Positions 1-30,327 of a stretch of DNA of 49,006 bases are shown here, one piece after another. Origin of the DNA: a virus; the IMG/VR virus record IMGVR_UViG_3300048778_000111, positions 1 through 49,006 of that record, one strand, 5' to 3'. The position numbers were made by a program, and so were the translations under genes. A model generated the notes under the pieces. The model searched no databases and was not told where the DNA came from. It worked only from the letters and a program-made list of their open reading frames with translations. Positions within the stretch are counted from its first letter, which is position 1; each line of letters opens with the position of its first letter.

Positions 1-83
1 GCCGCTATTACCGCCTCTCGTGGCGATAGGTTGAAATAATGCTCTTGCCCCGGAAAGTATGGATTGACAACTTTGCTGTGCAT
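1..83 (-). CDS. Hypothetical protein, 5' end only (runs off left edge)
   Basis: Only the first 27 codons are inside the window (begins MHSKVVNPYFPG). The ATG at 83 is chosen because it follows GAAAGGATC at normal ribosome-binding distance and lies 18 nt downstream of structured leader copy A. It is the last visible gene of the leftward operon. I do not recognise it. Confidence 0.6.
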   Translation of the reverse strand, partial: MHSKVVNPYFPGQEHYFNLSPREAVIA

Positions 84-100
84 TTTTGATCCTTTCCGCT

Positions 101-162
101 CTCTTGCCATAGCCTTAGCTACTGAGATCCGTTCCTGTATTCCGGTCAACGGGCCGGTACGT
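101..162 (-). promoter_or_regulatory. Structured leader RNA element, copy A
   Basis: Read on the minus strand this has a CCGG/CCGG hairpin, a conserved ACAGGAACG stretch, then a hairpin TAGC-TAAG-GCTA enclosed by TCTC/GAGA, with conserved TGGCAA on the 3' side. It ends 18 nt before the start codon at 83. Copies at 845 and 1605 keep the loops and change both sides of each stem together. A translational regulator or protein-binding leader is inferred. Confidence 0.7.
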
Positions 163-163
163 T

Positions 164-178
164 GTCCAAATAATGGAC
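164..178. repeat. Dispersed 15-bp palindrome (GTCCAAATAATGGAC)
   Basis: One of 28 copies in the window. Its last base is the first base of CTA, the complement of the stop codon of the leftward gene at 178-828. Confidence 0.85.
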
Positions 179-828
179 TATTCCACCCCGTCCGCGACCT
201 TGCGTTCTGCTTCCAGAATGGCCCGCCCGTCCGCGTCCAAAGCATCCCAAAGCATGGAATCAATTTGACCATTACCAGAAGCGGATTCCATGATCGCCCA
301 TGCCGCAAGGTCAGACGGCTCGAAGGATTGATAGAAAACGGATTCGATCAAAGTTCCAATTTGGTTTGCGTCCCACTCCAGCGGGTTTTTCGGCCACGCC
401 GCGAGGGAATTGTCGTAGAAGGACATAAACCCGTCATAGGAGGTGAACTTTTCATGAATCTGCCCGTCCAGTTGCGCTTTCGCCGCCGGATGGCCTGTTG
501 CCAACTTGTACAAAGCTTTGACCGCGCGCTGTGAGACTTCCACGAAAATTCGATCTGTTGCAAAGTTGTAGGCGCGCGGGGAATTCAGTTCCACGAACTT
601 CAGACGAATCGGAACCCCGGCCCCGTCCGAAAGCAAGTCGCAAAACGTATCGGCGTACCGTTTGGCATATTCTGTATGGACCTTAGTCCAGTCGATATGC
701 TCCCAGGAGTCGCCCGCAGAGGGAAGCGGGTCGCCGTTATTGTCTGAGAAAATCGACTCCAGTTCGTTGTCAAGCAAAGCAGAGTGGTCCGAATCGTAAA
801 AGCCGGTAAACGGAATAGTGGACTGCAT
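178..828 (-). CDS. Hypothetical phage protein (216 aa)
   Basis: An acidic soluble protein beginning MQSTIPFTGFYDSDHS with no membrane segment or motif I recognise. The mid-section (around residues 85-105) reads like an ordinary alpha/beta fold and the C-terminal half is helical and rich in Ala, Glu and Asp. The ATG at 828 has AGAGGAATACA upstream and lies 17 nt downstream of leader copy B. Function unknown; its place in the leftward operon suggests early or host-interaction functions. Confidence 0.8.
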   Translation of the reverse strand: MQSTIPFTGFYDSDHSALLDNELESIFSDNNGDPLPSAGDSWEHIDWTKVHTEYAKRYADTFCDLLSDGAGVPIRLKFVELNSPRAYNFATDRIFVEVSQRAVKALYKLATGHPAAKAQLDGQIHEKFTSYDGFMSFYDNSLAAWPKNPLEWDANQIGTLIESVFYQSFEPSDLAAWAIMESASGNGQIDSMLWDALDADGRAILEAERKVADGVE

Positions 829-844
829 TGTATTCCTCTCTTGA

Positions 845-905
845 CTCTTGCCAGCACCTTAGTGCCTGAGTCACGTTCCTGTTTGGCCGGTAACGTATCC
901 GGCCC
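845..905 (-). promoter_or_regulatory. Structured leader RNA element, copy B
   Basis: Minus strand: stem GGCCGG/CCGGCC with loop ATACGTTA, then AAACAGGAACG, then outer stem GACTC/GAGTC around hairpin GCAC-TAAG-GTGC and conserved TGGCAA. Loop ACGTT can pair with the downstream AACGT as a pseudoknot. It ends 17 nt before the start codon at 828. See copies A and C. Confidence 0.72.
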
Positions 906-929
906 CGGTAAAGTGCTAGCTGGACGGGT

Positions 930-1100
930 TTAGCTCCGAGAGCTGGCGCAAAGGTTCCCATCTTCATCATATTCCCATTCGTACTCTGTGCCGTCCTTGC
1001 TCCACGCCTGAATGGGTCTGTTTTCCAAGTCTCGAACCACTTTTTCATATCCCCGGCGGTCCACATCCTGATTCCAACGTTCCAATCCTTCGAGAGTCAT
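930..1100 (-). CDS. Hypothetical small protein (56 aa)
   Basis: Reads MTLEGLERWNQDVDRRG at the start and contains an acidic, aromatic segment (TEYEWEYDEDGN) near the C-terminus. Start ATG at 1100 and TAA at 930-932. It is a short, highly charged soluble protein. The following gene starts after a spacer that contains leader copy B. Not recognised. Confidence 0.6.
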   Translation of the reverse strand: MTLEGLERWNQDVDRRGYEKVVRDLENRPIQAWSKDGTEYEWEYDEDGNLCASSRS

Positions 1101-1138
1101 TGATTCCCTTCCGACTGCGCCATGAGGCTGTTTGGTTT

Positions 1139-1153
1139 GTCCATTATTCGGAC
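1139..1153. repeat. Dispersed palindrome (GTCCATTATTCGGAC)
   Basis: The last base begins CTA, the complement of the stop codon of the leftward gene at 1153-1404. This is the same arrangement as at 164-178, so two leftward genes end exactly at a copy of the repeat. Confidence 0.85.
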
Positions 1154-1404
1154 TAAACGAACGGTATACCCTGCGCCTTTTGGAGCCAATACCCTGTTGA
1201 CCCGTATACTAGGTCTGAGAATCGGGGTTTTTTGCCCCTATTCTCTGGCAAGCCTAGCAGCAGGCGGAGGTCTGAGTCACTTGCCGAGCGGGTGGTATTT
1301 TCGTACCGGAACTTGCGTATTGCAAACCCGAGTGTTCTTTCCCGCTCATATTTGCTGTAGAGACCATGAATTAGTCGCGCGCGCGCCATATTTCGCTTCG
1401 CCAT
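1153..1404 (-). CDS. Hypothetical basic protein (83 aa)
   Basis: Strongly basic, Arg-rich protein (begins MAKRNMARARLIHGL, with LRLLLGLPENRGKKPR in the middle). Its start ATG at 1404 follows AGGGGGATTC, and the stop of the upstream gene at 1414 is only 9 nt away, so the two are co-transcribed. The charge suggests nucleic-acid contact but no fold is recognised. Confidence 0.65.
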   Translation of the reverse strand: MAKRNMARARLIHGLYSKYERERTLGFAIRKFRYENTTRSASDSDLRLLLGLPENRGKKPRFSDLVYGSTGYWLQKAQGIPFV

Positions 1405-1413
1405 TGAATCCCC

Positions 1414-1587
1414 CTAGTACCCTAGAAAAGCCTTGACCACTTTCAAACTCGGGCGCATCCGTATCCAATCATCATGCACGTACCCAGCTATGTCCGAGTA
1501 GCTGCTAAGGGCGAAAATGTATCCGCCGCGCATATAGGCTTTTACTCCGTGCTCAATGAGCATATTGACCAGTTGAGTGTGAATCAT
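1414..1587 (-). CDS. Hypothetical small protein (57 aa)
   Basis: The start is taken at ATG 1587 (MIHTQLVNML) because AGAGGAAAC sits just upstream; the longer GTG start at 1614 would run into leader copy C. A helical N-terminal half is followed by an aromatic, Gly/Tyr-rich centre. First gene of a pair with 1153-1404. Function unknown. Confidence 0.65.
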   Translation of the reverse strand: MIHTQLVNMLIEHGVKAYMRGGYIFALSSYSDIAGYVHDDWIRMRPSLKVVKAFLGY

Positions 1588-1604
1588 GTTTCCTCTTTTC
1601 TGCG

Positions 1605-1667
1605 CTCTTGCCACGTCCTTAGACGCTGTGCGCCGTTACTGTATGCCCGGTAACCGTCCGGGCCGGT
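1605..1667 (-). promoter_or_regulatory. Structured leader RNA element, copy C
   Basis: Minus strand: stem GCCCGG/CCGGGC, then ATACAGTAACG, then an outer stem of GCGCAC with GAGCGC (one A.A mismatch) around hairpin CGTC-TAAG-GACG and conserved TGGCAA. It ends 18 nt before the start codon at 1587. Compared with copies A and B the stems differ but remain paired. Confidence 0.72.
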
Positions 1668-1883: not shown

Positions 1884-2258
1884 TCATCCTACTTTCTGTA
1901 CCTGTACAGGTACAAACACTTTGACTACATTTTGAGCATAGTACCCAACAAACCCGCTGTCAAGTACTAATTTTTCGAATTCGTACCGTGCGTTATTCTC
2001 TGTTTGTCTGGCCGTCGATTGCGCCGTGAGGATTAAACCCAAAGGGTCAGAATCGAGATTGTAGAGTGTTTCCGAGTCCAGTTCGGCGGTGTACCGGGTC
2101 CGATTCGCTTGCACAGCGGGCTCCCGGTATCCCGGTAAACCAAAGTATGTACCTTTTACCTGTGCGCGGTCCCGTTCAGCTCCGCGCACTCCAGTACCGG
2201 CAAACTCGGGTAGAGTGGCCGTTAAATCGGCTTGCTTGCTCCAGTGATTGACTATCAT
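1884..2258 (-). CDS. Hypothetical protein (124 aa)
   Basis: The start ATG at 2258 overlaps the upstream gene's TGA as ATGA and has GAGGAAACGCGGA upstream, so it is translationally coupled. The sequence is soluble, with a central TYFGLPGYREP segment and a basic/hydrophobic C-terminus (VVKVFVPVQVQKVG). A longer start at 2285 inside the upstream gene is less likely. Function unknown. Confidence 0.7.
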   Translation of the reverse strand: MIVNHWSKQADLTATLPEFAGTGVRGAERDRAQVKGTYFGLPGYREPAVQANRTRYTAELDSETLYNLDSDPLGLILTAQSTARQTENNARYEFEKLVLDSGFVGYYAQNVVKVFVPVQVQKVG

Positions 2259-2913: not shown

Positions 2914-2963
2914 GTATCGGCTTGAAACGATACCGCCGCATTAAAGGCACGTTGTATTGTGCC
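2914..2963 (-). promoter_or_regulatory. Two leader hairpins upstream of the 2899 start
   Basis: On the minus strand a GGCAC/GTGCC hairpin (2946-2963) is followed by a GTATCG/CGATAC hairpin (2914-2933) that ends next to the AGGTGG ribosome binding site. They may modulate translation. They are not copies of the A/B/C leader. Confidence 0.45.
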
Positions 2964-2977
2964 TCACTCTGCGAGTT

Positions 2978-7829: not shown

Positions 7830-7907
7830 GCGAGTATAGCCCACGTTGGAAGAGGCGTCTGGCTTAAACCCAGTTCAGGGCCGGTTCGACACCGGTTACT
7901 CGCACCA
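7830..7907 (+). tRNA. tRNA-Leu(TAA), short variable arm
   Basis: Acceptor GCGAGTA/TACTCGC, A, encoded CCA; anticodon loop CTTAAAC; T-arm GCCGG-TTCGACA-CCGGT. The variable loop is only 5 nt, unlike normal bacterial tRNA-Leu. Confidence 0.85.
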
Positions 7908-7908
7908 C

Positions 7909-7983
7909 GGTCAGGAACCTAATCGGCTAAGGGACTGTTTGCAAAACAGTTGTTGGGGCGTTCGACTCGCCTCCTGACCTCCA
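7909..7983 (+). tRNA. tRNA-Cys(GCA)
   Basis: Acceptor GGTCAGG/CCTGACC, T, CCA. Anticodon stem ACTGT/ACAGT with loop TTGCAAA. Canonical layout. Confidence 0.92.
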
Positions 7984-7996
7984 AGTTTAGTTTTAT

Positions 7997-8073
7997 GGGC
8001 GACTAGGAAAACTGGCAAATCCATCTGACTTAGAATCAGACTTTTCGGGGTTCGACTCCCCGGTCGCCTACCA
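7997..8073 (+). tRNA. tRNA-Leu(TAG), short variable arm
   Basis: Acceptor GGGCGAC/GTCGCCT (one G.U), A, CCA. Anticodon stem TCTGA/TCAGA with loop CTTAGAA. Five-nt variable loop CTTTT instead of a class II arm. Confidence 0.85.
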
Positions 8074-8079
8074 AGTTTT

Positions 8080-8162
8080 GCCGATGTGGCGTAATTGGAA
8101 GCCGCGCTGGATTCAAATCCCAGTCCTTCGGGGTGCCGGTTCGATTCCGGCCATCGGCACCA
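8080..8162 (+). tRNA. tRNA-Leu(CAA)
   Basis: Acceptor GCCGATG/CATCGGC, A, CCA. Loop TTCAAAT with an A-C closing mismatch; variable region of 11 nt with a CC-TTC-GG mini stem, closer to a normal Leu. Confidence 0.8.
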
Positions 8163-8164
8163 AG

Positions 8165-8335
8165 TTTCTCAGCATCGTGTTTGACACGTAGATTATCAAC
8201 CAGTTGAGTCCGAAGGATTGTGGAGCGGCCAATCACAACTGTGAGGTAGGGGCGTTATCCCGGCGCGAAAACCCCACAAGGAAACTTGCGGCGAGAGGTC
8301 GGGATTGCTGAACTTAGAAGGTTCAGACTGAGAAA
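8165..8335 (+). ncRNA. Structured non-tRNA RNA candidate in the tRNA array (171 nt)
   Basis: Closed by a perfect 8-bp pair TTTCTCAG (8165-8172) with CTGAGAAA (8328-8335). Inside are hairpins GTGT-TTG-ACAC, CAAG-GAAA-CTTG (a GNRA tetraloop) and CTGAAC-TTAGAAG-GTTCAG. It has no T-arm, no CCA and no open frame, and I do not recognise SRP, tmRNA, RNase P or a group I core. Function unknown. Confidence 0.5.
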
Positions 8336-8342
8336 GTTTTAC

Positions 8343-8429
8343 GGAAGCGTGCCTCAATGGTACAGGACGGCTCTGCTAAGGCCGCAAGACCGAAAGGTTG
8401 TGAACGTTCAAGTCGTTCCGCTTCCGCCA
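8343..8429 (+). tRNA. tRNA-Ser(GCT)
   Basis: Acceptor GGAAGCG/CGCTTCC, G, CCA. Loop CTGCTAA; long variable arm with GACC-GAAA-GGTT. Normal class II Ser tRNA. Confidence 0.9.
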
Positions 8430-8444
8430 TTTTGAGGAGATTAA

Positions 8445-9005
8445 ATGGAAGAATTTCGAGTTTGCAAGACGTGTGGAGAAACAAAACCAATCACTGAGTT
8501 TTGTATAAACTACACCAATAAATCTACGGGGATGGTATACCGGAGAAATGTCTGCAAAGCGTGTGATTATCCGGCTCGAAATTTGAGAGCAAGAGGAAGA
8601 AAAGGAACGAGCGAAGAATCTGTTCGACTCCGAAAAGAACGAGGAAAAAGATACCAAGACAGTCCAAAGAATAGACCAGCTATCATAGTGAGAGATTCTA
8701 AGAAATCAGACAAGATAAAAGGTCTCGAAAATGATCTGGACGTTGGCTGGGTCCGGGAGGCAATCGTCGGTGGGTGTACTTATTGCGGAGAAACTACTCT
8801 CAAGATGTCTCTGGACAGAATTGATAATAGTTTAGGGCACCTGAAAAGCAATGTTATTCGTTCTTGTACTCGTTGCAACTATCTGAGACGAGATATGCCC
8901 TACGAGGCTTGGTTAATAATTTGCCAGTCGGTCAGAAAAGTTCGAGAACTTGGGCTATTTGGAAATTGGACCTGTGGCATCAGTGACAGAAATTTAGGAA
9001 AGTAA
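8445..9005 (+). CDS. HNH-type homing endonuclease in the tRNA array (186 aa)
   Basis: An N-terminal zinc ribbon (CKTCGETKPITEF and CKACD, residues 6-41) is followed by a basic linker and a C-terminal nuclease core with CTYCGETTLKMSLDRID and NVIRSCTRCNYLR, the phage HNH/endonuclease VII-like type. TTTGAGGAG precedes the ATG. Its last codons contain a copy of the first 13 bases of the tRNA-Ser(GGA) gene, so it probably inserted at that tRNA. Confidence 0.85.
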   Translation: MEEFRVCKTCGETKPITEFCINYTNKSTGMVYRRNVCKACDYPARNLRARGRKGTSEESVRLRKERGKRYQDSPKNRPAIIVRDSKKSDKIKGLENDLDVGWVREAIVGGCTYCGETTLKMSLDRIDNSLGHLKSNVIRSCTRCNYLRRDMPYEAWLIICQSVRKVRELGLFGNWTCGISDRNLGK

Positions 9006-9138
9006 ACTCCCAGGTGCTCCGCCAGTACAAAACCGCAAAGAGCCGTCGGTCTTTTCGTCTCAAGCCTCTCGAAGAAGCTCAAATCGTAGACGATGAGTTG
9101 ATGTCCGGACATCGGCCAACATTTTGGAAAGTAAACTC
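8997..9138 (+). repeat. 13-bp direct repeat at the HNH insertion (GGAAAGTAAACTC)
   Basis: Copies at 8997-9009 (end of the HNH gene) and 9126-9138 (5' end of tRNA-Ser(GGA)). The 116 nt between them reads like gene debris (a GTG frame from 9014 runs into the tRNA) and holds no assignable gene. Confidence 0.7.
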
Positions 9139-9212
9139 AGCGGGGTCTGAGACTCCGTTGGAAACGGATGTGGTCCGAAAGGACTGGGCTTCAAGTGCTC
9201 TGCTTTCCGCCA
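9126..9212 (+). tRNA. tRNA-Ser(GGA)
   Basis: Acceptor GGAAAGT/GCTTTCC, G, CCA. Loop TTGGAAA; long variable arm GTCC-GAAA-GGAC. Its 5' end is duplicated at the end of the upstream HNH gene. Confidence 0.88.
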
Positions 9213-9216
9213 TTTA

Positions 9217-9303
9217 GGAAGATGGCGACCAAGGTGGTCAAACCGATTCGAACTCGGTGCTGTCCATTATCTGGACAAGGTTTCGATACTTCATCTTCCG
9301 CCA
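9217..9303 (+). tRNA. tRNA-Ser(CGA) with the palindrome as variable arm
   Basis: Acceptor GGAAGAT/ATCTTCC, G, CCA; anticodon stem ACCGA/TCGGT with loop TTCGAAC. The long variable arm is the 15-bp repeat GTCCATTATCTGGAC (9262-9276) folded as a hairpin. The T-arm is weakly paired, so functionality is uncertain. Confidence 0.8.
9262..9276. repeat. Dispersed palindrome inside a tRNA-Ser variable arm
   Basis: A perfect copy, GTCCATTATCTGGAC, extended to TGTCC/GGACA. Confidence 0.9.
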
Positions 9304-9441
9304 ATTGTCCCTCAACGGGCGTCCACCCGAAAGTCTCAGTTGAATCGGGATGGTCATTAGAACTGAGGTCGGCGCTGCTTTGAGAACCCGGCAGCAGACA
9401 TAGCCGTGGTCCCTTATTAGGACAAGGGGTCTCACAGTTTT
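9304..9441 (+). other. Hairpin-rich non-tRNA segment
   Basis: No gene found. It contains inverted repeats CTCAGTT/AACTGAG and GCTGC/GCAGC and a degenerate palindrome GTCC-CTTATTA-GGAC at 9409-9423. It may be a degraded tRNA pair, but no acceptor or T-arm can be built. Confidence 0.4.
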
Positions 9442-9528
9442 GGATCGTCCTGCCGACGTTTCGGCGACTCGTCCTGAAAACGAGTGCTCCTGAAAAGGAT
9501 GAGAGTTGAACCCTCTGGCGATCCTCCA
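9442..9528 (+). tRNA. tRNA-Ser(TGA), C33
   Basis: Acceptor GGATCGT/GCGATCC, T, CCA. Loop CCTGAAA has C instead of the nearly universal U at position 33. Long variable arm; T-loop TTGAACC. Confidence 0.8.
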
Positions 9529-9532
9529 TTTT

Positions 9533-9616
9533 GCGCGTAGCGGACGATGGCGTCCATCTGGCCGTAACCCAGCCGCTCTAAGAGCACCGGGAGTTCAATT
9601 CTCTCTGCGCGCACCA
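9533..9616 (+). tRNA. tRNA-Tyr(GTA), C33
   Basis: Acceptor GCGCGTA/TGCGCGC, A, CCA. Loop CCGTAAC (C33). Class II arm GCTCTAAGAGC is normal for bacterial Tyr. Confidence 0.82.
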
Positions 9617-9639
9617 TTTTATAGAACCAGAAAGGCGAG

Positions 9640-9795
9640 ATGCCGCACGATGTGTACTTGTTTGGGTTTAGCCCCGACTGGTGGCTTCTCAGGGCCCCCC
9701 AATATCATTTTGCAATGGGGATAGTGGCGGTAGTTTGCTTGGCGTTTTGTTTTGACTCCTGGCTAATGCTTCGCCGGATTTACAAAAAGTTTTAG
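9640..9795 (+). CDS. Small membrane protein inside the tRNA array (51 aa)
   Basis: MPHDVYLFGFSPDWW leads into a hydrophobic helix (MGIVAVVCLAFCF) and a basic tail (RRIYKK). AAAGGCGAG precedes the ATG. Its stop codon abuts the next tRNA. A membrane-acting accessory peptide; role unknown. Confidence 0.6.
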   Translation: MPHDVYLFGFSPDWWLLRAPQYHFAMGIVAVVCLAFCFDSWLMLRRIYKKF

Positions 9796-9872
9796 ACGGG
9801 GGTCCGTTGGTATGGCCTGAGCGCTCATAACGCTTCAGGAATAGCGCGGTTCGAATCCGCCTCCCCGAACCA
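9796..9872 (+). tRNA. tRNA-Met/Ile2(CAT)
   Basis: Loop CTCATAA. Acceptor ACGGGGG/TCCCCGA has an unpaired first position (A-A), reminiscent of an initiator tRNA, but the GGG/CCC anticodon-stem pairs of initiators are absent. Initiator, elongator and Ile2 identities cannot be separated by eye. Confidence 0.75.
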
Positions 9873-9876
9873 ATTC

Positions 9877-9950
9877 GGTCCCGTGATCTAACGGAATGAT
9901 GCTCGCCTGTCTAGCGAGATGAGAGGGTTCGACACCCTTCGGGACCGCCA
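9877..9950 (+). tRNA. tRNA-Asp(GTC)
   Basis: Acceptor GGTCCCG/CGGGACC, G, CCA. Anticodon stem CTCGC/GCGAG with loop CTGTCTA. Confidence 0.92.
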
Positions 9951-9955
9951 TATTT

Positions 9956-10033
9956 GCGACGGCAGTCTGCGCTGGTTTGGACCACGGTCTTTCACACCGT
10001 GCTACGCGGGTTCGATTCCCGTCCGTCGCGCCA
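9956..10033 (+). tRNA. tRNA-Glu(TTC)
   Basis: Acceptor GCGACGG/CCGTCGC, G, CCA. Loop CTTTCAC between ACGGT and ACCGT. T-arm GCGGG-TTCGATT-CCCGT. Confidence 0.92.
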
Positions 10034-10039
10034 AGTTGT

Positions 10040-10129
10040 TCAGGTGTAACCATAATTGGAACTGGCTACGGCTGTTAACCGTATCGCCCTTAACTGGGTA
10101 TAGAGGTTCGAGTCCTCTCACCTGAGCCA
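10040..10129 (+). tRNA. tRNA-Asn(GTT) with a long variable arm
   Basis: Acceptor TCAGGTG/CACCTGA, G, CCA; anticodon stem TACGG/CCGTA with loop CTGTTAA. The variable region is 18 nt with a CCC/GGG stem, a class II feature not expected of tRNA-Asn. Confidence 0.88.
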
Positions 10130-10134
10130 AGATC

Positions 10135-10254
10135 ATGATCTATACTATTTACAGAACGACAAATTTATTAAACGGAAAATTCTATGTTGGCATTCACAAT
10201 AGAATCAAGAAAATTACTGGGTCTTCGCCTAGTAGGTATGGCACTTCGCTCTGA
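10135..10254 (+). pseudogene. GIY-YIG endonuclease N-terminal fragment running into a tRNA
   Basis: MIYTIYRTTNLLNGKFYVGI is the GIY-YIG nuclease signature (IY then YVG). The frame ends after 39 codons inside the following tRNA-Gln gene, so only the N-terminal motif remains. It is the relic of a homing endonuclease lost from the tRNA array. Confidence 0.75.
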
Positions 10255-10294
10255 ACGAAGAATAGGACAGGTTCGAGACCTGTAGACCCAGCCA
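10218..10294 (+). tRNA. tRNA-Gln(CTG)
   Basis: Acceptor TGGGTCT/AGACCCA, G, CCA. Anticodon stem CTTCG/CGAAG with loop CTCTGAA. Overlaps the end of the GIY-YIG fragment frame. Confidence 0.92.
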
Positions 10295-10299
10295 AGTTT

Positions 10300-10389
10300 T
10301 GGGAGATCGCTTAATTGGGTAAGGCACCTGCCTTTGAAGCAGGCAGACCGAGAGGTCGTATGGGGGTTCGAGGCCCTCTCTCCCAGCCA
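10300..10389 (+). tRNA. tRNA-Gln(TTG) with a long variable arm
   Basis: Acceptor TGGGAGA/TCTCCCA, G, CCA. Loop CTTTGAA. An 18-nt variable region forms GACC-GAGA-GGTC, unexpected for Gln. Confidence 0.88.
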
Positions 10390-10394
10390 ACTTC

Positions 10395-10409
10395 GTCCAG
10401 ATAATGGAC
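10395..10409. repeat. Dispersed palindrome (GTCCAGATAATGGAC)
   Basis: A perfect consensus copy between two tRNA genes. Confidence 0.9.
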
Positions 10410-10456
10410 TATGTATAGGTCCATATCGTGGGTTAAGGTGCCATACAGGGGGTTTT

Positions 10457-10531
10457 GCCTGATTAGCTTAGTTGTTAGAGCGTTGGATTCGTATCCCAAA
10501 TACCGGAGTTAGATTCTCCGATCAGGCCCCA
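10457..10531 (+). tRNA. tRNA-Thr(CGT)
   Basis: Acceptor GCCTGAT/ATCAGGC, C, CCA. Loop TTCGTAT with an A-C mismatch closing the anticodon stem, the same defect as in Leu(CAA). Confidence 0.82.
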
Positions 10532-10611
10532 AGGCTCGGTCCTCTTGATACCCGGCGAGAGGGGGCTAGGTCAACCCCGAGATTGTTCTAGCCTCTGGCC
10601 GTTCGGGACAA
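10532..10611 (+). other. Hairpin segment between tRNA-Thr genes
   Basis: CCTCT/AGAGG and GGCTAG/CTAGCC hairpins in about 80 nt, tRNA-sized, but without a recognisable T-arm or CCA end. Unassigned. Confidence 0.35.
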
Positions 10612-10687
10612 GGTGGTTAATCATTGCTGCTGATGAGCGTCCTCGGTAAGGACGAATAACGGAGTTGAAATCTCCGAACCACCTCCA
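10612..10687 (+). tRNA. tRNA-Thr(GGT), C33
   Basis: Acceptor GGTGGTT/AACCACC, T, CCA. Anticodon stem CGTCC/GGACG with loop TCGGTAA (C33). T-loop TTGAAAT. Confidence 0.82.
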
Positions 10688-10707
10688 AAGTTTTTCTGAA
10701 ATAAATG

Positions 10708-10736
10708 TTGACAAACTGAGATTCGTGTGGTATACT
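10708..10736 (+). promoter_or_regulatory. Internal promoter of the tRNA array
   Basis: TTGACA, 17-bp spacer ending GTGTGG, TATACT, 18 bp before tRNA-Thr(TGT). Confidence 0.8.
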
Positions 10737-10754
10737 GTTTTTAGTTTAAGATTT

Positions 10755-10828
10755 GCACCCGTGGTCTAGTGATAAGACGTGCCCTTTGTACGGCCAAGAC
10801 GGGGGTTTGATTCCTCCCGGGCGCTCCA
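10755..10828 (+). tRNA. tRNA-Thr(TGT)
   Basis: Acceptor GCACCCG/CGGGCGC with one A-C mismatch, T, CCA. Loop TTTGTAC, anticodon stem with one C-C mismatch. Confidence 0.75.
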
Positions 10829-10837
10829 AGATTTACC

Positions 10838-10855
10838 TGTCTGAGAAATCAGACA
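10838..10855 (+). other. GNRA hairpin TGTCTGA-GAAA-TCAGACA
   Basis: A perfect 7-bp stem with a GAAA tetraloop just after tRNA-Thr(TGT); no T-run follows. Possibly the relic of a larger folded RNA. Confidence 0.5.
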
Positions 10856-10910
10856 CTACTCCGGACCCAGAGACAAAAGGGCAAAGCGGTCAAATCTGGT
10901 CCCGAGTTTG

Positions 10911-11108
10911 ATGAGGACAATGCCTTATGGCTATCGGGGCTTAAGTTCTGAAGCTCCGCCGGGAATGACTTGGTGTTCTCTTCATAAGCAATATCTTCCG
11001 GTAGAACAGTTTCACAAAGACTCGAAGCAAAAGAGCGGCTATCAAAAGAGATGTATTGACTGCCGCAAAAAGAAGAGAAAAGTTTCTTCCCCAAAGAGGG
11101 AAGACTAA
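10911..11108 (+). CDS. Zinc-ribbon protein, HNH N-terminal domain only (65 aa)
   Basis: MTWCSLHKQYLPVEQFHK followed by CIDCRKKKRK matches the N-terminal zinc-ribbon of the phage HNH genes at 8445, 26446 and 34934, but the nuclease core is absent. It is a truncated endonuclease or a stand-alone DNA-binding domain. TGAGAA before it and GGTTCGAATCC...TTCTCA after it hint that it interrupts a tRNA. Confidence 0.6.
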   Translation: MRTMPYGYRGLSSEAPPGMTWCSLHKQYLPVEQFHKDSKQKSGYQKRCIDCRKKKRKVSSPKRED

Positions 11109-11127
11109 GCAGCCAGAGATAACGGTT

Positions 11128-11250
11128 CGAATCCATCTTCTCACCGAGGGTTACCTCGGAGAGTCGTCTAAGGGTAGGACACTGGCGTAAGTCCGAGGAA
11201 TGAGGGTCTCCAATCCCTCCGGAATATGCGGTATTCCGCACCGTCATTCA
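11128..11250 (+). other. tRNA-like remnants
   Basis: GGTTCGAATCC at 11128 is a bare T-arm core. The segment from about 11156 has a D-arm-like GTCGTCTAAGGGTAGGAC and a T-arm-like GAGGG/CCCTC, then a perfect GGAATA-TGCGG-TATTCC hairpin in place of an acceptor. No intact tRNA can be built. Confidence 0.4.
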
Positions 11251-11277
11251 ATTAGGACCTCGGCGAAGTTTGAGTTG

Positions 11278-11351
11278 GGGGCCGTGATGAAACGCGATCA
11301 TGTCGCTTTTGCACTGCGGATTTGAGGGTTGGATTCCCTCCGGCTCCACCA
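11278..11351 (+). tRNA. tRNA-Ala(TGC)
   Basis: Acceptor GGGGCCG/CGGCTCC, A, CCA. Loop TTTGCAC with a T-T mismatch closing the stem. T-arm GAGGG-TTGGATT-CCCTC. Confidence 0.78.
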
Positions 11352-11545
11352 AGTTTGAGGGCGTACTCTTTTGAAGGACTTGTCAGAGTCCCAATCGGGT
11401 ACGTTGGCTGACACCACAAGAGTCTGACCTAAGAGCCCGACTCAAGCCTCAGAGCAATTGATCTGAGAACCGCGACACCTGCGGCAGCGTTCTGAGTTGA
11501 TCGACTCGGGGTGAGTGGCGTGACGGCGGGGAGAGACCATGTTTT
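11352..11545 (+). other. Structured non-tRNA segment (194 nt)
   Basis: No gene. A long-range pair ACTCTTTTG with CACAAGAGT encloses GACT/AGTC and CCC/GGG hairpins. Further on, CTCAGA-GCAATTGA-TCTGAG, CCGC/GCGG and GAGT/ACTC hairpins follow. Like 8165-8335 it is folded RNA in appearance but not a tRNA. Confidence 0.4.
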
Positions 11546-11621
11546 GCCAACTGCGTAGGTATGGTTATTACGATTCTCTGAAAAGGAATAGAACTCGGAT
11601 CGTAACCGGGAGTTGGCACCA
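11546..11621 (+). tRNA. tRNA-Phe(GAA)
   Basis: Acceptor GCCAACT/AGTTGGC, A, CCA. Anticodon stem ATTCT/GGAAT with loop CTGAAAA. The T-loop ATCGTAA is unusual. Confidence 0.85.
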
Positions 11622-11622
11622 T

Positions 11623-11700
11623 CAGTGCGTAGCTCAGTCTGTTCAGAGTTCTCGTTTCGGATACGAGGGGTCGCTGGTTAGAATCCAGCCGCACTGACCA
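11623..11700 (+). tRNA. tRNA-Pro(CGG)
   Basis: Acceptor CAGTGCG/CGCACTG, A, CCA. Anticodon stem CTCGT/ACGAG with loop TTCGGAT. Confidence 0.88.
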
Positions 11701-11706
11701 ATTTAT

Positions 11707-11783
11707 CTGGGGGTGGGCAAAAGGTTAGCCTCTCGCTCTGGAAGCGAACTATCAAGTGAGTTCGATTCTCACCCTCCAGACCA
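11707..11783 (+). tRNA. tRNA-Pro(TGG), C33
   Basis: Acceptor CTGGGGG/CCTCCAG, A, CCA. Loop TCTGGAA has C33. T-arm GTGAG-TTCGATT-CTCAC. Confidence 0.78.
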
Positions 11784-11789
11784 TTTTAC

Positions 11790-11866
11790 GCCCCTGTAGC
11801 TTAACTGAATAAAGCGGCAAGCTACGAACTTGTCAGATTCCGATTTGAGTTCGGACAAGGGTTCCA
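11790..11866 (+). tRNA. tRNA-Arg(ACG)
   Basis: Acceptor GCCCCTG/CAAGGGT with one mismatch, T, CCA. Anticodon stem GCAAG/CTTGT with loop CTACGAA. T-arm TCCGA-TTTGAGT-TCGGA. Confidence 0.8.
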
Positions 11867-11867
11867 C

Positions 11868-11938
11868 AGGGGATGATCTGGGATTAGGCCAGCCTCCAAA
11901 TCTAGCCGTGAGGAGTTCGATTCTCCTATCCCCTGCCA
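11868..11938 (+). tRNA. tRNA-Trp(CCA), shortened
   Basis: Acceptor AGGGGAT/ATCCCCT, G, CCA and T-arm AGGAG-TTCGATT-CTCCT are clear. The D-arm is short and the anticodon stem weak; loop CTCCAAA is the best fit, giving Trp. Confidence 0.6.
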
Positions 11939-11965
11939 GTTTGAACGTACTCATTTTGAGAACAA

Positions 11966-12041
11966 GTCAGCGAGGACGAAGAGAATAGTCGCGGCACTCA
12001 TAACGCCGTCGTAGCTGGTTTGAGTCCAGCCGCTGGCACCA
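11966..12041 (+). tRNA. tRNA-Met/Ile2(CAT), second copy
   Basis: Acceptor GTCAGCG/CGCTGGC, A, CCA. Loop CTCATAA. T-arm GCTGG-TTTGAGT-CCAGC. Could be elongator Met or Ile2. Confidence 0.8.
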
Positions 12042-12047
12042 AGTTTT

Positions 12048-12138
12048 GGGCGATAGCATCGGCGTGCGGCGGGGCCTTATAAACCCTGAACTCCAGATTA
12101 GAGTGCCGGGACGGGTTCGACTCCCTCATCGCCTACCA
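12048..12138 (+). tRNA. tRNA-Ile(TAT) with a long variable region
   Basis: Acceptor GGGCGAT/ATCGCCT, A, CCA. Loop CTTATAA. About 20 nt of variable region with an ACTC/GAGT stem, not expected of tRNA-Ile. The T-stem is imperfect. Confidence 0.72.
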
Positions 12139-12139
12139 C

Positions 12140-12214
12140 GGGTTGCAAGCTTAGACGGCGAAGCACTCGACTCTTAATCGAGAGAACCGAGTTCGACTCT
12201 CGGGCAACCCACCA
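12140..12214 (+). tRNA. tRNA-Lys(CTT)
   Basis: Acceptor GGGTTGC/GCAACCC, A, CCA. Anticodon stem CTCGA/TCGAG with loop CTCTTAA. Confidence 0.92.
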
Positions 12215-12261
12215 ATCTTAGGAGAACGTTATGAACCAGAAATCCGAGAGTGACAAAAGAC

Positions 12262-12335
12262 GCCTCGTGAGTGTGATGGTGCATAACTGGCTTTTACCCA
12301 GTTTGGACAGAGTTCGATTCTCTGGCGGGGTACCA
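12262..12335 (+). tRNA. tRNA-Lys(TTT)
   Basis: Acceptor GCCTCGT/GCGGGGT (several wobble pairs), A, CCA. Anticodon stem ACTGG/CCAGT with loop CTTTTAC. AGGAGAACGTTATG just upstream looks like the start of a lost gene. Confidence 0.85.
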
Positions 12336-12341
12336 AGTTTT

Positions 12342-12417
12342 GCGGACGTAGATTAGAGGCTAAATCGGCTGGTCTACACCCAGTTCACCGCAGGTTCGAG
12401 TCCTGCCGTCCGTACCA
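12342..12417 (+). tRNA. tRNA-Val(TAC), C33
   Basis: Acceptor GCGGACG/CGTCCGT, A, CCA. Loop TCTACAC has C33. Confidence 0.82.
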
Positions 12418-12418
12418 T

Positions 12419-12496
12419 CCCCGAATAGCTCATCCTGAGAAGAGCAATCTCTTGATAGGAGATAGGTGGGCGGTTCAAGTCCGTCTTCGGGGACCA
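12419..12496 (+). tRNA. tRNA-Ile(GAT)
   Basis: Acceptor CCCCGAA/TTCGGGG, A, CCA. Anticodon stem ATCTC/GAGAT with loop TTGATAG. Confidence 0.88.
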
Positions 12497-12500
12497 AGTT

Positions 12501-12615
12501 TGTTTGTTCGGGTAGAGGCTTATCCCTGATCTGATGCTAAAGTGGGTGCGCGGTCGCTCAGGACACTATAAATGAGTGGACCCACTCGGAGATTCGAATT
12601 CTCCACAAACAATCA
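12501..12615 (+). other. Aberrant tRNA-like gene (115 nt)
   Basis: Acceptor TGTTTGT/ACAAACA and T-arm GGAGA-TTCGAAT-TCTCC are perfect. The end is A-TCA instead of CCA. The middle is enlarged: CCTGA/TCAGG encloses about 28 nt, and AGTGGGT pairs with ACCCACT. No 7-nt anticodon loop is evident. Confidence 0.55.
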
Positions 12616-12619
12616 ATTT

Positions 12620-12693
12620 GCGGGGTTGGTATATCGCTTGTGCCCTGGTCTTCCAAACCAGAGAAAGGGGTCGAACTCCCCTACTCCGCTCCA
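12620..12693 (+). tRNA. tRNA-Gly(TCC)
   Basis: Acceptor GCGGGGT/ACTCCGC, T, CCA. Anticodon stem CTGGT/ACCAG with loop CTTCCAA. Last tRNA of the array. Confidence 0.92.
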
Positions 12694-26384: not shown

Positions 26385-26445
26385 AGAGGGGTCGGTGCCT
26401 GAATCATCGTCCCCAAAGCCCTACCTCATATTCAGGATGAGCCAA
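26385..26445 (+). promoter_or_regulatory. Leader hairpins before an HNH gene (copy 1)
   Basis: A GGGG/CCCC hairpin followed by CCCAAA and a CTCAT/ATGAG hairpin that overlaps the AGGATGAG binding site. The same order of elements precedes the HNH gene at 34934. Confidence 0.5.
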
Positions 26446-27489
26446 ATGACAGAAGAAGCCATGATGAAACGCTGCTCTAAGTGCGGCGAAGTTAAACCGT
26501 TAACAGAGTTTTACAAAGACTTAAGCAAGAAAGATGGGTTTCGAAACGACTGTAAATCCTGCTTTTCCCGGAGAAGAAGAGAGTACTACGCGGAGAACAA
26601 AGAAGAAATACTCGCTAAAAATCGAGAATATAATCTAAAAAATAGAGACTCTATTCGCAAAGCAGAAAAAGCGTATAACGAAACCCACTCAGAAGAAATA
26701 AAGCAATATCGTCGATCTCGTCACGTCATAAACCGAGATAAAAATATTGCGAGAAGTAAAGATTTTTACGAGGAAAATAAGCCTCGCATTCTAGAAGAAC
26801 AGAAAGATAAGCGACGGAAGAGACCCTCGTACTCTATTTTTTATGCCGCTAAAAACCGCGCCAAAGAGAATAATATACCCTTTTCTTTGGTGGAGGAAGA
26901 TGTGGTCATTCCCCGCTTGTGCCCTATTCTGGGGATACCGTTAGAACGGGGGACCGGAGTTCATCACGATGAATCTCCAAGTTTGGATAGAATTGTTCCT
27001 GAGTTGGGATACATTCGGGAAAATGTCGCAGTAATAAGCTACCGGGCGAATACTTTAAAGACTGACGGGACGGCTAAAGAACACCGGCTGATTGCCAACT
27101 GGATCGAAGGTATTTCTTCTTTTGTATTTGAGACAACTCCGGCTGTTAAAAAGCATTTGTACCGGCTTACCGCTAGCGCGAAAGGGCGGGCAAAGAGAGG
27201 TGGATTTCCGTTCTCTATCACAAAAGAGGATTTTCTCATTCCCAGTATTTGTCCCATTCTCGGAATACCTATCAGGCCCGGTCTTGGAAAGATGCAAGAC
27301 AGTTCGCCGACTCTAGACAAGATCATCCCCGAACTCGGATACGTTCCCGGAAATGTTGCGGTAATCAGTTGGCGAGCAAACAGAATCAAGAACGTGGGCA
27401 CCGCCGCCGAACACCGCCAAATAGCCGATTGGATAGACACCCAACTAAACCGTCCAGATAATGGACAAACCCCCGAGGCATCGGATTGA
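26446..27489 (+). CDS. Homing endonuclease with two HNH-like domains in tandem (347 aa)
   Basis: An N-terminal zinc ribbon (CSKCGEVKPLTEFYKD, CKSC) and a basic helical linker lead into two similar nuclease modules, each with CPILGIP, (S/T)LD(R/K)I(V/I)PELGY and NVAVIS(Y/W)RAN. The 34934 protein has one such module. Start could be 26437, 26446 or 26461. It has its own promoter and leader and separates portal from the next structural genes, as free-standing homing genes do. A palindrome copy is in its last codons. Confidence 0.85.
   Translation: MTEEAMMKRCSKCGEVKPLTEFYKDLSKKDGFRNDCKSCFSRRRREYYAENKEEILAKNREYNLKNRDSIRKAEKAYNETHSEEIKQYRRSRHVINRDKNIARSKDFYEENKPRILEEQKDKRRKRPSYSIFYAAKNRAKENNIPFSLVEEDVVIPRLCPILGIPLERGTGVHHDESPSLDRIVPELGYIRENVAVISYRANTLKTDGTAKEHRLIANWIEGISSFVFETTPAVKKHLYRLTASAKGRAKRGGFPFSITKEDFLIPSICPILGIPIRPGLGKMQDSSPTLDKIIPELGYVPGNVAVISWRANRIKNVGTAAEHRQIADWIDTQLNRPDNGQTPEASD
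27452..27466. repeat. Dispersed palindrome in the HNH C-terminus
   Basis: GTCCAGATAATGGAC, read in frame as (R)PDNG(Q). Confidence 0.9.
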
Positions 27490-27502
27490 TGCAGGAGACA
27501 CG

Positions 27503-28246
27503 ATGGCCCAAAAGTTAGAAGATTTGTTACAGCCTCTTCTTTCCGCACTAGAGGATTTTCTGAAAGAATTCAAGAGAAAAGCGCAGGCGCTCCTGGAAGA
27601 AGAAACTCGTGAATCTACGTTTAGAAAACTAGCGAAAGAATTACGAGAAAGACAAGAGCGTTACAAGAAAGACGAGCAAGACAACTGCCCCCACGTTGCT
27701 GGCTGTAATCCTCTAAGCGAAATGCAAGATACCTTTGGAAGGACGAGCATCGTCTGGCACACTTTGGATACGGGTGCGGCTGTTGGAATCTGTACTGTCT
27801 GCCAAAGAATTTTCCTCCCGGAAGACAAAGATTACGCGGAATGGCGCGCAAAGCCTTCGTTTAATAGATGGTCTTCTGCGGGCACAAGATTCTGGCCGGA
27901 CGGGAGAATAACGCAATTTCCCACATCCCAAAACTCGGAAGAAGAGTTCACCCCCTCCTATACACAAGAAGAACTTTACCAAAAGGTAGAGGACGAAAGA
28001 AAGTCTATCGGGGGCTACGCGTACCCGGCGGAAGGTCTGGACGCTCTCTCAGACGACCAGATCAATAAACTTTTTGTGGGCGTTCGGGAATACCGCAAAG
28101 CCCTCAAGAACCCTGAGAAAGCGTTAGAGAAAATCTTTTCTGGGCCGGAGTGGAGTGTGAGAACCGACATCATCCCTCCGGAAAAACTAGAGGAAGAAAA
28201 CGAGCCAGAGTACGACTACGACGATTGGAGGGATGACGACTACTAA
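27503..28246 (+). CDS. Zinc-finger-like structural-region protein (247 aa)
   Basis: A coiled-coil N-terminus (residues 5-60) is followed by NCPHVAG, SIVWHTLD, VGICTVCQRIFLPED, YAEWRAKPSFN and SSAGTRFW. The 41820 protein carries the same series, so the two are paralogues with a shared Cys/His metal site. The acidic tail is rich in Asp and Tyr. CAGGAGACACG before ATG 27503 decides the start. Position between portal and scaffold suggests a head-assembly role; not proven. Confidence 0.65.
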   Translation: MAQKLEDLLQPLLSALEDFLKEFKRKAQALLEEETRESTFRKLAKELRERQERYKKDEQDNCPHVAGCNPLSEMQDTFGRTSIVWHTLDTGAAVGICTVCQRIFLPEDKDYAEWRAKPSFNRWSSAGTRFWPDGRITQFPTSQNSEEEFTPSYTQEELYQKVEDERKSIGGYAYPAEGLDALSDDQINKLFVGVREYRKALKNPEKALEKIFSGPEWSVRTDIIPPEKLEEENEPEYDYDDWRDDDY

Positions 28247-28455
28247 TGACTCAACCAAATTTTAGTACTAAAGACAACGCTATCCCCGCCACCGATTATG
28301 ATCGAATGTCGGACGCCGAGATTCAGAACCTAATCAACCAAGCCCACCAAGTCAAAACAGGACGTATGGGCCGAGTATCCGCCGCACCTCCTCCCCCTCA
28401 AAAAGGGTATGTAGACATCGACGGGCTTATTAAGCGGTACGGAGGGCAGTCGTGA
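28246..28455 (+). CDS. Hypothetical protein (69 aa)
   Basis: Soluble, helical N-terminus and a PPPP stretch before YVDIDGLIKRYGG. Its start overlaps the previous stop by one base (TAATG) and its stop overlaps the next GTG. Small head-region gene of unknown function. Confidence 0.6.
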   Translation: MTQPNFSTKDNAIPATDYDRMSDAEIQNLINQAHQVKTGRMGRVSAAPPPPQKGYVDIDGLIKRYGGQS

Positions 28456-28793
28456 CCGACATTATCTACCCCGATGAACTAGAAGGCAAGATTGATGTGT
28501 ACGAACGGGGACGGATTCTACGAACAGTACCAGACCAAGCCTGGGAGATCATCTTTGATACTGTCCACAGCTACGTAGATGGTACTGACCAAGCGCATCG
28601 ATCTCTTCCGCCGGGAGACCCCGCAGTAGTAGCCTCCCATGCCGGACTTTCTGTCCTGAGTCAATTCGAGACTTTCTTCAAGCAGGACCTCGAAAATGCA
28701 ATGGAATTCGCACTACACCCAGATACGGAGTTCACGGCGTACTTAAGTGGGTTCCGAGATAAACTTGATGTTTTGAAACAGCAGGAGGCGTAG
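28452..28793 (+). CDS. Hypothetical acidic helical protein (113 aa)
   Basis: GTG start with GGAGGGCAGTC upstream, overlapping the previous gene. Mainly helical and acidic (FETFFKQDLENAMEFALHPD). It ends GCGTAGTG, sharing a base with the next start. Unknown function in the portal-scaffold block. Confidence 0.6.
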   Translation: MTDIIYPDELEGKIDVYERGRILRTVPDQAWEIIFDTVHSYVDGTDQAHRSLPPGDPAVVASHAGLSVLSQFETFFKQDLENAMEFALHPDTEFTAYLSGFRDKLDVLKQQEA

Positions 28794-29035
28794 TGGACGA
28801 GAATCTCGTAGGACAAGCAAGCACATATACACAACTTTCGTGCGGAGGGGAACCTAATCAGCAGACGCAACACGTTTGCCCCAATTGTGGGTATTGCCCA
28901 TGTTGTGGTAGAAAGAACCCACTATCCTCTCCGTATATTCAGCCTTGGCCCGGATACCCGCAGCCGTACGTTGGTGATTGGTCCTGGGCCACCGGCCAAG
29001 CTTGGATAACTCGTACTTCCACAAACATTGGCTGA
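28793..29035 (+). CDS. Zinc-ribbon protein with aromatic tail (80 aa)
   Basis: CPNCGYCPCCGRK (residues 29-41) provides four closely spaced Cys, and the rest is Pro/Trp/Tyr-rich (PWPGYPQPYVGDWSWATG). GTG start overlapping the previous stop. A small metal-binding protein of unknown role. Confidence 0.6.
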   Translation: MDENLVGQASTYTQLSCGGEPNQQTQHVCPNCGYCPCCGRKNPLSSPYIQPWPGYPQPYVGDWSWATGQAWITRTSTNIG

Positions 29036-29037
29036 AA

Positions 29038-29052
29038 GTCCGAATAATGGAC
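29038..29052. repeat. Dispersed palindrome (GTCCGAATAATGGAC)
   Basis: Directly after the zinc-ribbon gene, upstream of the scaffold gene. Confidence 0.88.
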
Positions 29053-29133
29053 AATTCCACTAAGAAATAACGTATACTTTTTCCTTAAACACCTACCCGT
29101 TGATATTGGATTATATCAAGAGGAATGAACAAC

Positions 29134-30300
29134 ATGAGTAAGCCTGTATCTGACCCCTGGCTCCTGAACTCTGACGGAAGCCCCGACCCATTCGCAAACA
29201 ACGTAGATTGGAATATGCCCGATCTTCCCAACCTCGACGAAGATATTAATGACCAAGATCCAGTTCTCACATCTCAGGAAAACCTAGACCCGGAAATTAT
29301 CGAGACTCCTCCTGTAGCAGGTCCGCCCCCACCCCCCGAGGAACCAGAAGAACCAGAAACAATGGACCTCGAAGATGGTACCCAACTAGTCCTGAGTAAA
29401 GACAAAGGAGTGTGGGTTGGTTCGGTCGTAGGTTGCGCGGGAAGCGCCCAAGTCTACAAAGGAGCTACCAAGAACAAGTTGATTCTGGAAGTTCTAAAGG
29501 CTCAGGCAAATGCTACCAAGAAGATTCGGGAGCAGAATGCCAAGATCAAGTTCGGAGCTATTCCCGCGAAGCCAGTAGCACAAACACAGACCCCTCAGCC
29601 GTCTCCTGTCCGGCAACTCACCGCAGACGAGATTTTTGAATACCGGACTTTGTGGGAGTCAGATCCAGCAGCCGCCAACGACTTCTTACTCCAAAAAACT
29701 CGCGGGGTGACTATGGACCAAGTCCTGAACCTCGCCCAGCAGGGAGCAAAGCAAGGATCGTACGCGGCCAATCAGCTTACTGCCGAGCAGGCAAATAAAA
29801 CCTTCTTGGCGAATAACCCCGACTATTATGCGGACACAAATTTTCAGAACTTCAACCTGCTACTTCAGTGGCTAGCGAAGTTCAAACTCGGTGAATCAAT
29901 CCGAAAGGGAGATGAAGAAGCGGTATTCAATAATCTACTCTCCACCGGAAACTACACAGCCGAAAATCTTGAGGAAGCCTTCCAAGACCTGAACAACGAT
30001 GGTTTGATGATTCAGGCACCAAGGCAACCCAAAACACCTTCACCGGAAACGGTGGAACCCCCTCCGCCGGTAGCGGTTCAACACGAACCGGCACCTGCGC
30101 CGCGTCCCGACTCACGGATTGTAAGTCAGGTTACGCGCCCGAGAGCGGCACTAGGAATTGGCAGGAATGACGTAACACCCGTCAAACCTCCGGAGTCTCC
30201 GAACGCACCCTCAGCCGAGGATTTTGAGAACATGACAGACGAAGAAGTTGCGAACACCCTCAATGCTATTCGTCGGGCACGTGCTCAAAGTCGGCGCTAA
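29134..30300 (+). CDS. Scaffold protein (388 aa)
   Basis: Acidic, Pro/Glu-rich N-terminus, central segment FLANNPDYYADTNFQNFN typical of scaffolding proteins of T7/N4-like heads, and a helical basic C-terminus (NALNAIRRARAQ-like) that would contact the shell. It lies immediately upstream of the major capsid gene, the usual place for scaffold. ATG 29134 is preferred over 29125 by spacing from AAGAGGA. Confidence 0.75.
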   Translation: MSKPVSDPWLLNSDGSPDPFANNVDWNMPDLPNLDEDINDQDPVLTSQENLDPEIIETPPVAGPPPPPEEPEEPETMDLEDGTQLVLSKDKGVWVGSVVGCAGSAQVYKGATKNKLILEVLKAQANATKKIREQNAKIKFGAIPAKPVAQTQTPQPSPVRQLTADEIFEYRTLWESDPAAANDFLLQKTRGVTMDQVLNLAQQGAKQGSYAANQLTAEQANKTFLANNPDYYADTNFQNFNLLLQWLAKFKLGESIRKGDEEAVFNNLLSTGNYTAENLEEAFQDLNNDGLMIQAPRQPKTPSPETVEPPPPVAVQHEPAPAPRPDSRIVSQVTRPRAALGIGRNDVTPVKPPESPNAPSAEDFENMTDEEVANTLNAIRRARAQSRR

Positions 30301-30327
30301 AAACTAACAACAAAGGAGTATCTCTAA

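Follow-up and report, generated by a model that had tools for sequence, protein, structure and literature searches.

A candidate new class of small self-cleaving ribozyme in the intercistronic slots of phage operons

Known small ribozymes compared with a phage leader RNA

About nine or ten natural classes of small self-cleaving ribozymes are known, and the role that they play in phages is still open (PMC6155905, PMC10085705). Pistol, hatchet, and twister-sister were all found by the same logic, namely the recognition of an unknown conserved RNA in ribozyme-rich slots (PMC10085705, PMC4604424, PMC4604425). Here, we analyzed a stretch of 49,006 bases that makes up an IMG/VR virus record (hereafter the window), in which a reading made from the sequence alone had described an unrecognized structured leader RNA, present in three copies ahead of leftward genes. 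This description is fully supported: all three copies occur on the minus strand, within a run of small genes read leftward, and a search of Rfam 15 at gathering and at permissive thresholds matched none of its families to the elements. In addition, a full-text literature search of open-licence papers returned no report of this RNA.

Among the described classes, hatchet (RF02678) offers the closest layout, with a P1 stem that is often 6 bp long, a conserved P1–P2 linker, a P2 stem, a conserved asymmetric internal bulge, and a P3 stem, all of which have counterparts in the element (PMC4604424). Hatchet often carries an extra 5′ hairpin (P0), as the element sometimes does, and it was discovered via ribozyme-rich slots (PMC4604424). 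However, hatchet requires a P4 stem for activity, which the element does not have, and its model spans 133 positions against the 58–70 nt of the element; a hatchet search of 18 element-bearing contigs (E <= 1) gave no match, and neither did direct scans. Pistol (RF02679) is likewise a small, phage-associated RNA in which a 5′ hairpin P1 is combined with two more stems, under the same slot logic (PMC4604425). Yet in pistol a pseudoknot connects the P1 loop with the P2–P3 junction, where the element has a single A, whereas the possible pseudoknot partner in the element lies in the P1–P2 linker and is devoid of covariation support; the pistol model does not match the element.

The other classes to be considered are those found in the same operons as the element. 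Type-P5 twister (RF02684) occupies the same slot between stop codon and ribosome-binding site (RBS), upstream of homologous genes, but differs from the element in its sequence core and topology, and the twister models RF02684 and RF03160 match only at other positions, never at the elements. HDV-like ribozymes (RF02682 and kin) also occur in these operons, and the UGGCRAG strand of the element resembles UGGCUAAUGGG of the HDV-like ribozyme in contig L401, a resemblance that is a look-alike only: the nested double pseudoknot of HDV-like RNAs, in which the 3′ strand of P1 runs between P2 and P4, is absent from the element, the alignment of which leaves one A between P2 and P3, and no Rfam match links the two. 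As for the hammerhead, matches to its CUGANGA and GAAA core and to its Rfam models all lie in other gaps.

A covarying RNA family

In the window, copy 1 spans positions 98–159 (minus strand, as for all coordinates of the copies; 60.5 bits, E 1.1e-12). It consists of a P1 hairpin (CCGG/CCGG, 157–154/145–142), the linker J1/2 (ACAGGAACG, 138–130), an outer stem P2 (GATCTC/GAGAGC with one A-G mismatch, 129–124/103–98), an internal loop formed by an A (123) and GGCAA (108–104), and an inner hairpin P3 (GTAGC/GCTAT, 122–118/113–109) with the loop TAAG (117–114). Copy 2 (842–904; 72.3 bits) repeats this succession with P1 GGCCGG/CCGGCC (904–899/890–885), the same J1/2 ACAGGAACG (882–874), P2 TGACTC/GAGTCA (873–868/847–842), A (867), GGCAA (852–848), and P3 GGCAC/GTGCT (866–862/857–853) around TAAG (861–858), and copy 3 (1602–1663; 70.9 bits) does so with P1 GCCCGG/CCGGGC (1663–1658/1650–1645), J1/2 ACAGTAACG (1642–1634), P2 GCGCAC/GAGCGC with one A-A mismatch (1633–1628/1607–1602), A (1627), GGCAA (1612–1608), and P3 GCGTC/GACGT (1626–1622/1617–1613) around TAAG (1621–1618). 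All the parts that the sequence-only reading had named (the GC-rich hairpin, ACAG(G/T)AACG, the outer stem, the A/GGCAA internal loop, and the inner hairpin) are thus present, although its boundaries are shifted by 3–4 nt relative to ours (159–98, 904–842, and 1663–1602), and the 17–18 nt that it had given between element and start codon come down to 13–14 nt when measured from the end of the outer stem to the ATG (83–81, 828–826, and 1587–1585 for copies 1, 2, and 3). Each copy begins 18–25 nt past the nearest stop codon of the upstream frame and is separated from its ATG by a purine-rich RBS.

To look beyond the window, we built a covariance model (R1) seeded solely with the copies of the window and of the related contig L086, which carries all three of them, each with one or more changes in sequence. 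R1 matched a diverged copy in L099 (E 2.8e-9), a contig that had met a looser pattern earlier, as well as G006/L149 (E 1.1e-7), G017/L174 (E 3.9e-8), and G032/L175 (E 5.0e-7), which were first found by the model among relatives by their TerL protein rather than by pattern. A wider pattern combined with a filter on stem complementarity yielded 30 distinct sequences, and R1 scored 30 matches in the pattern-found loci, all at E < 1e-5. A second model, R2, added further copies, along with members in L450, L433, and L360; over ~1.7 Mb of mostly unrelated loci, its only other matches above 23 bits were L328 and L340, which are repeats of a known member. Overall, the family comprises 33 distinct members, which form 25 clusters below 85% identity, with sizes of 58–70 nt, solid matches in about 25 contigs, most of them fragments, and up to 6 copies per contig. 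The covariance-model search for which the sequence-only reading had called recovered independent members in other phage contigs.

Loose DNA patterns taken by themselves mostly returned chance matches, which the complementarity filter removed, and the model matches in L176, L177, L178, and L150 were dropped as chance because they were coding-like or had a broken core. In a pattern scan of genome contigs, one believable member was found, at L360:883–942 (+; 36.8 bits), with weak P1 and P3, before a small gene with an RBS on a contig of 6.9 kb from a Candidatus Omnitrophica bin; the other 13 candidates scored no better than about 21 bits. A truncated member at L407:9576–9623 (+; 28.1 bits) keeps P1 and ACAGGAACG intact and still precedes an RBS, with P2, P3, and GGCRA shrunk to a short hairpin, and is possibly a decayed copy. 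Among cultured phages, the nearest TerL (23% identity) is that of Tunturi_3, a soil phage of Tunturiibacter (Acidobacteriota), which gives a weak hint to the host; no element was found in Tunturi_3.

Across the family, the fold runs from hairpin P1 through the linker J1/2 (ACAGGAAMG) to P2, a 1x5 internal loop (A / GGCRA), and the hairpin P3. In the model-fitted alignment of 29 distinct rows, 96.5% of the cells pair and 15 of the 17 pairs show changes on both sides, with 149 doubly changed cells against a mean of 39.7 after shuffling and 10–23 in slid registers. When P2 and P3 are read from a MAFFT alignment made from sequence only, 93.9% of the cells are still paired, and 98 are doubly changed (shuffled, 29.1; slid, 3–22). 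Covariation is significant in all three helices. The inner stems TAGC/GCTA, GCAC/GTGC, and CGTC/GACG, which had been noted to differ on both sides among the three copies, do so indeed, and further members extend the pattern. Folding of single sequences recovers the family helices for copy 2, L138, and the L401 copy, nearly so for copy 3, and misses P1 in copy 1; for copy 2, the fold is exactly the family structure (z -3.74).

This compensatory pairing in three helices bears on a reading of the element as a conserved DNA feature, such as a promoter, a recombination site, or a regulator site. In favor of such a reading, these gaps often contain repeats and palindromes, but the element is always oriented in the sense of the next gene and lies just 9–32 nt from its start codon. 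These gaps are too short for a promoter, so the element should lie within the transcript; a sigma-70-like sequence (TTGACA-17-TATGCT, 1935–1963, minus strand), a consensus match only, is found transcriptionally upstream of all three copies. We rejected the DNA site, which was already disfavored and is hardly credible.

The unpaired nucleotides are highly conserved. CAG...UGGCRAG is present in 33/33 distinct members, with the caveat that the conservation of CAG and GGCRA was partly built into the search patterns. The linker reads ACAGGAACG, ACAGGAAAG, or close variants, the internal loop is closed by an invariant C-G pair on the P2 side and an invariant G-U pair at the opening of P3, and a CC-rich stretch, often ACC, directly precedes P1 (CC within the last 7 nt in 28/33). 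In the aligned members, P3 closes as a hairpin of about 4–6 bp, the loop of which is free: TAAG, previously presented as a common feature, is replaced by GGATA, AGATA, CCCAA, GAAA, and others outside the window. The proposed CGTT/AACG pseudoknot can form in copies 1 and 2, but it does not covary across the family, since shuffling loops among members gave a mean of 86.7 against the 92 observed, with 99 of 2000 shuffles as high. No other tertiary contact was proved; when copy 2 is folded alone, the conserved CC upstream of P1 forms an outer CC/GG pairing with the linker, which could not be proved either. By definition, a self-cleaving ribozyme breaks its own strand at a single site through internal phosphoester transfer; small covarying helices arranged around highly conserved unpaired nucleotides are a further mark of the kind, and the family shows them. 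Being compact (about 62 nt) and well covarying, it provides a candidate class with many natural sequences to test.

Intercistronic slots shared with known ribozymes

The element sits between a stop codon and an RBS, ahead of unrelated small genes, with a median of 11 nt from the stop codon to P1 and of 14 nt from the end of P2 to the start codon, against a median of 16.5 nt to the start codon for the known ribozymes of the same arrays. In the window, copy 1 is followed by the RBS GGAAAGGA and ATG (81–97, minus strand) of a gene that begins MHSKVVNPYFPGQEHYFNLSPR and runs off the window, copy 2 by a 216-aa gene (178–828, minus strand), and copy 3 by a 57-aa gene (1414–1587, minus strand) that begins MIHTQLVNMLIEHGVKAYMRGGYIFAL. 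This diversity weighs against the suggestion that the element might be a metabolite riboswitch tuning the translation of the next gene. A conserved core in a 5′ leader and an aptamer-like length of 58–70 nt would suit a riboswitch, but many unrelated small phage proteins are encoded downstream, without a shared pathway, and the same copy-2 element is followed by the 216-aa gene in the window but, in the sister phage L086, by an unrelated gene of 112 aa. Moreover, the RBS lies outside any conserved pairing and no expression platform is visible. We therefore rejected the riboswitch, which we regard as very improbable.

The same leftward gene block of the window also contains a Type-P5 twister self-cleaving ribozyme (2916–2973, minus strand; RF02684, 40.0 bits, E 4e-6), located 16 nt before the ATG (2899–2897) of a 214-aa gene. 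Twister-P5 scores above the Rfam cut-off in 10 of the about 25 element-bearing contigs, the 10 representing ~6 independent lineages (G017, G032, G038, G039, and G051 share one element sequence and were counted as one), and was found in 0/50 unrelated viral (phage) contigs. Other ribozymes accompany the element as well: L149 has a sub-threshold twister-P1 (46.1 bits, E 1e-7), G050 a hammerhead II (42.5 bits) and an HDV-like RNA (48.7 bits; below cut-off in three other lineages), and G001/L086 a hammerhead II before an RBS at C1:9289–9357 (minus strand; 36.9 bits for a Rfam cut-off of 37). In L401 (G050), two elements, a hammerhead II, a Twister-P5, and an HDV-like RNA follow one another within 2.6 kb on one strand. 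Several element contigs (e.g. G033/G035/G040/G045, G034/G042, G043, G047, and G048) have no known ribozyme above the Rfam cut-off in the record.

Besides co-occurring, the element and Twister-P5 replace each other upstream of the same genes. In the window, L136, and L404, the new element lies upstream of the gene family of copy 3, a place taken in L416 by Twister-P5 (E 2e-23 to 1e-16); the L416 homolog is 60% identical to the protein of the window (E 2e-23). Similarly, the gene family of copy 1 is preceded by the element in the window and L136 and by Twister-P5 in L402, where the relative is extended by 19 residues at its N-terminus and is 63% identical over 27 residues (E 2e-11). Together with the occurrence of copy 2 before unrelated genes, these gene families with either RNA indicate that the element goes with the slot rather than with the gene, and that it is exchanged for a known ribozyme. 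Such orthologous pairs, with twister or the new RNA upstream, make an intercistronic ribozyme role directly testable, in phage operons that harbor four or more RNA classes in equivalent stop-to-RBS slots.

Since these slots are shared with Twister-P5, hammerhead II, and HDV-like RNAs, the element is probably a self-cutting RNA, although occurrence in the slots of known self-cleaving ribozymes is a supporting rather than a defining property: association and interchange with ribozymes do not prove catalysis, and the slots could hold other structured 5′-UTR RNAs. The functions offered by the sequence-only reading, which had missed the ribozyme-bearing slots, are less well supported. One of them is a translational operator or other 5′-UTR site, at which a phage or host protein would bind the linker and the A/GGCRA loop to repress, activate, or stabilize the message. 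The position directly before the RBS and the repetition up to 6 times per contig speak for such a site, a conserved internal loop amid variable stems is typical of protein sites, and a GTCC-N7-GGAC hairpin found genome-wide in these phages could itself be one. On the other hand, twister takes the same slots and gene families in sister phages, hammerhead and HDV-like RNAs fill equivalent operon slots, and no candidate binding protein was identified; as the element lies among differing genes in different phages, its cognate protein would moreover have to be shared by them. We thus consider the operator unlikely. The interchange with ribozymes would also be expected of a processing or stability element that relies on a nuclease of the host or the phage (RNase III, E, P, or J), which would reach a ribozyme-like outcome without self-cleavage and the stable fold of which would shield the 5′ end of the processed mRNA. 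But the near-invariant linker, A, GGCRA, and C-G and G-U closing pairs exceed what a nuclease usually needs, and the members probably reside in phages of different hosts (e.g. L360, from the Omnitrophica bin), so that dependence on a nuclease appears distinctly improbable.

Hence, we think it likely that the element represents a new structural class of small self-cleaving ribozyme, which cuts the polycistronic mRNAs of phages just 5′ of the RBS. It is also fairly probable that this natural class has its own fold and active site, and that its phages put a self-cleaving RNA, of nearly any class, ahead of one gene after another, swapping ribozyme classes as interchangeable parts. On this basis, a group of soil and environmental phages would use the candidate ribozyme to trim multigene messages. 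The linker and the internal loop may come together as the active site, and, given that hatchet cleaves at the 5′ base of P1 (PMC4604424), the cut is predicted by analogy to fall at the same place in the element, close to its conserved CC-rich stretch. The product would be a 5′-OH mRNA that starts with the folded element, followed by the RBS and the ATG. We infer catalysis and this cleavage site, as well as a benefit that might lie in the separation of cistrons, in 5′-OH protection, or in the tuning of translation.

Further features of the arrays and of the window

The window contains 24 copies of the GTCC-N7-GGAC hairpin or palindrome (typically GTCCRRATAATGGAC) when 0.7 would be expected, often right behind a stop codon. 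One site (164–178) is directly 5′ of copy 1, and others include those at 1139, 4011, 7577, 9262, 9409, 10395, 12699, 14406, 27452, 29038, 33373, 36993, and 37922. The hairpin lies just 5′ of 6/35 new elements, and in L401 it forms stem III of the hammerhead and P4 of the HDV-like ribozyme. A GTCC hairpin also opens a further recurrent intercistronic leader (window 1153–1100, minus strand; L086 about 1690–1620 and 3335–3300, minus strand), in which it is followed by AAACC, a small hairpin GCC-UCAY-GGC, RCAG, and an RBS; this leader may represent one more motif of these arrays that has not been described before.

Elsewhere in the window, we detected a group I intron (34127–34306, plus strand; 66.3 bits), HNH/endonuclease VII-like genes (26395–32627), and an array of 22 tRNA genes identified with ARAGORN (7830–12693, plus strand), similar arrays being present in related contigs.
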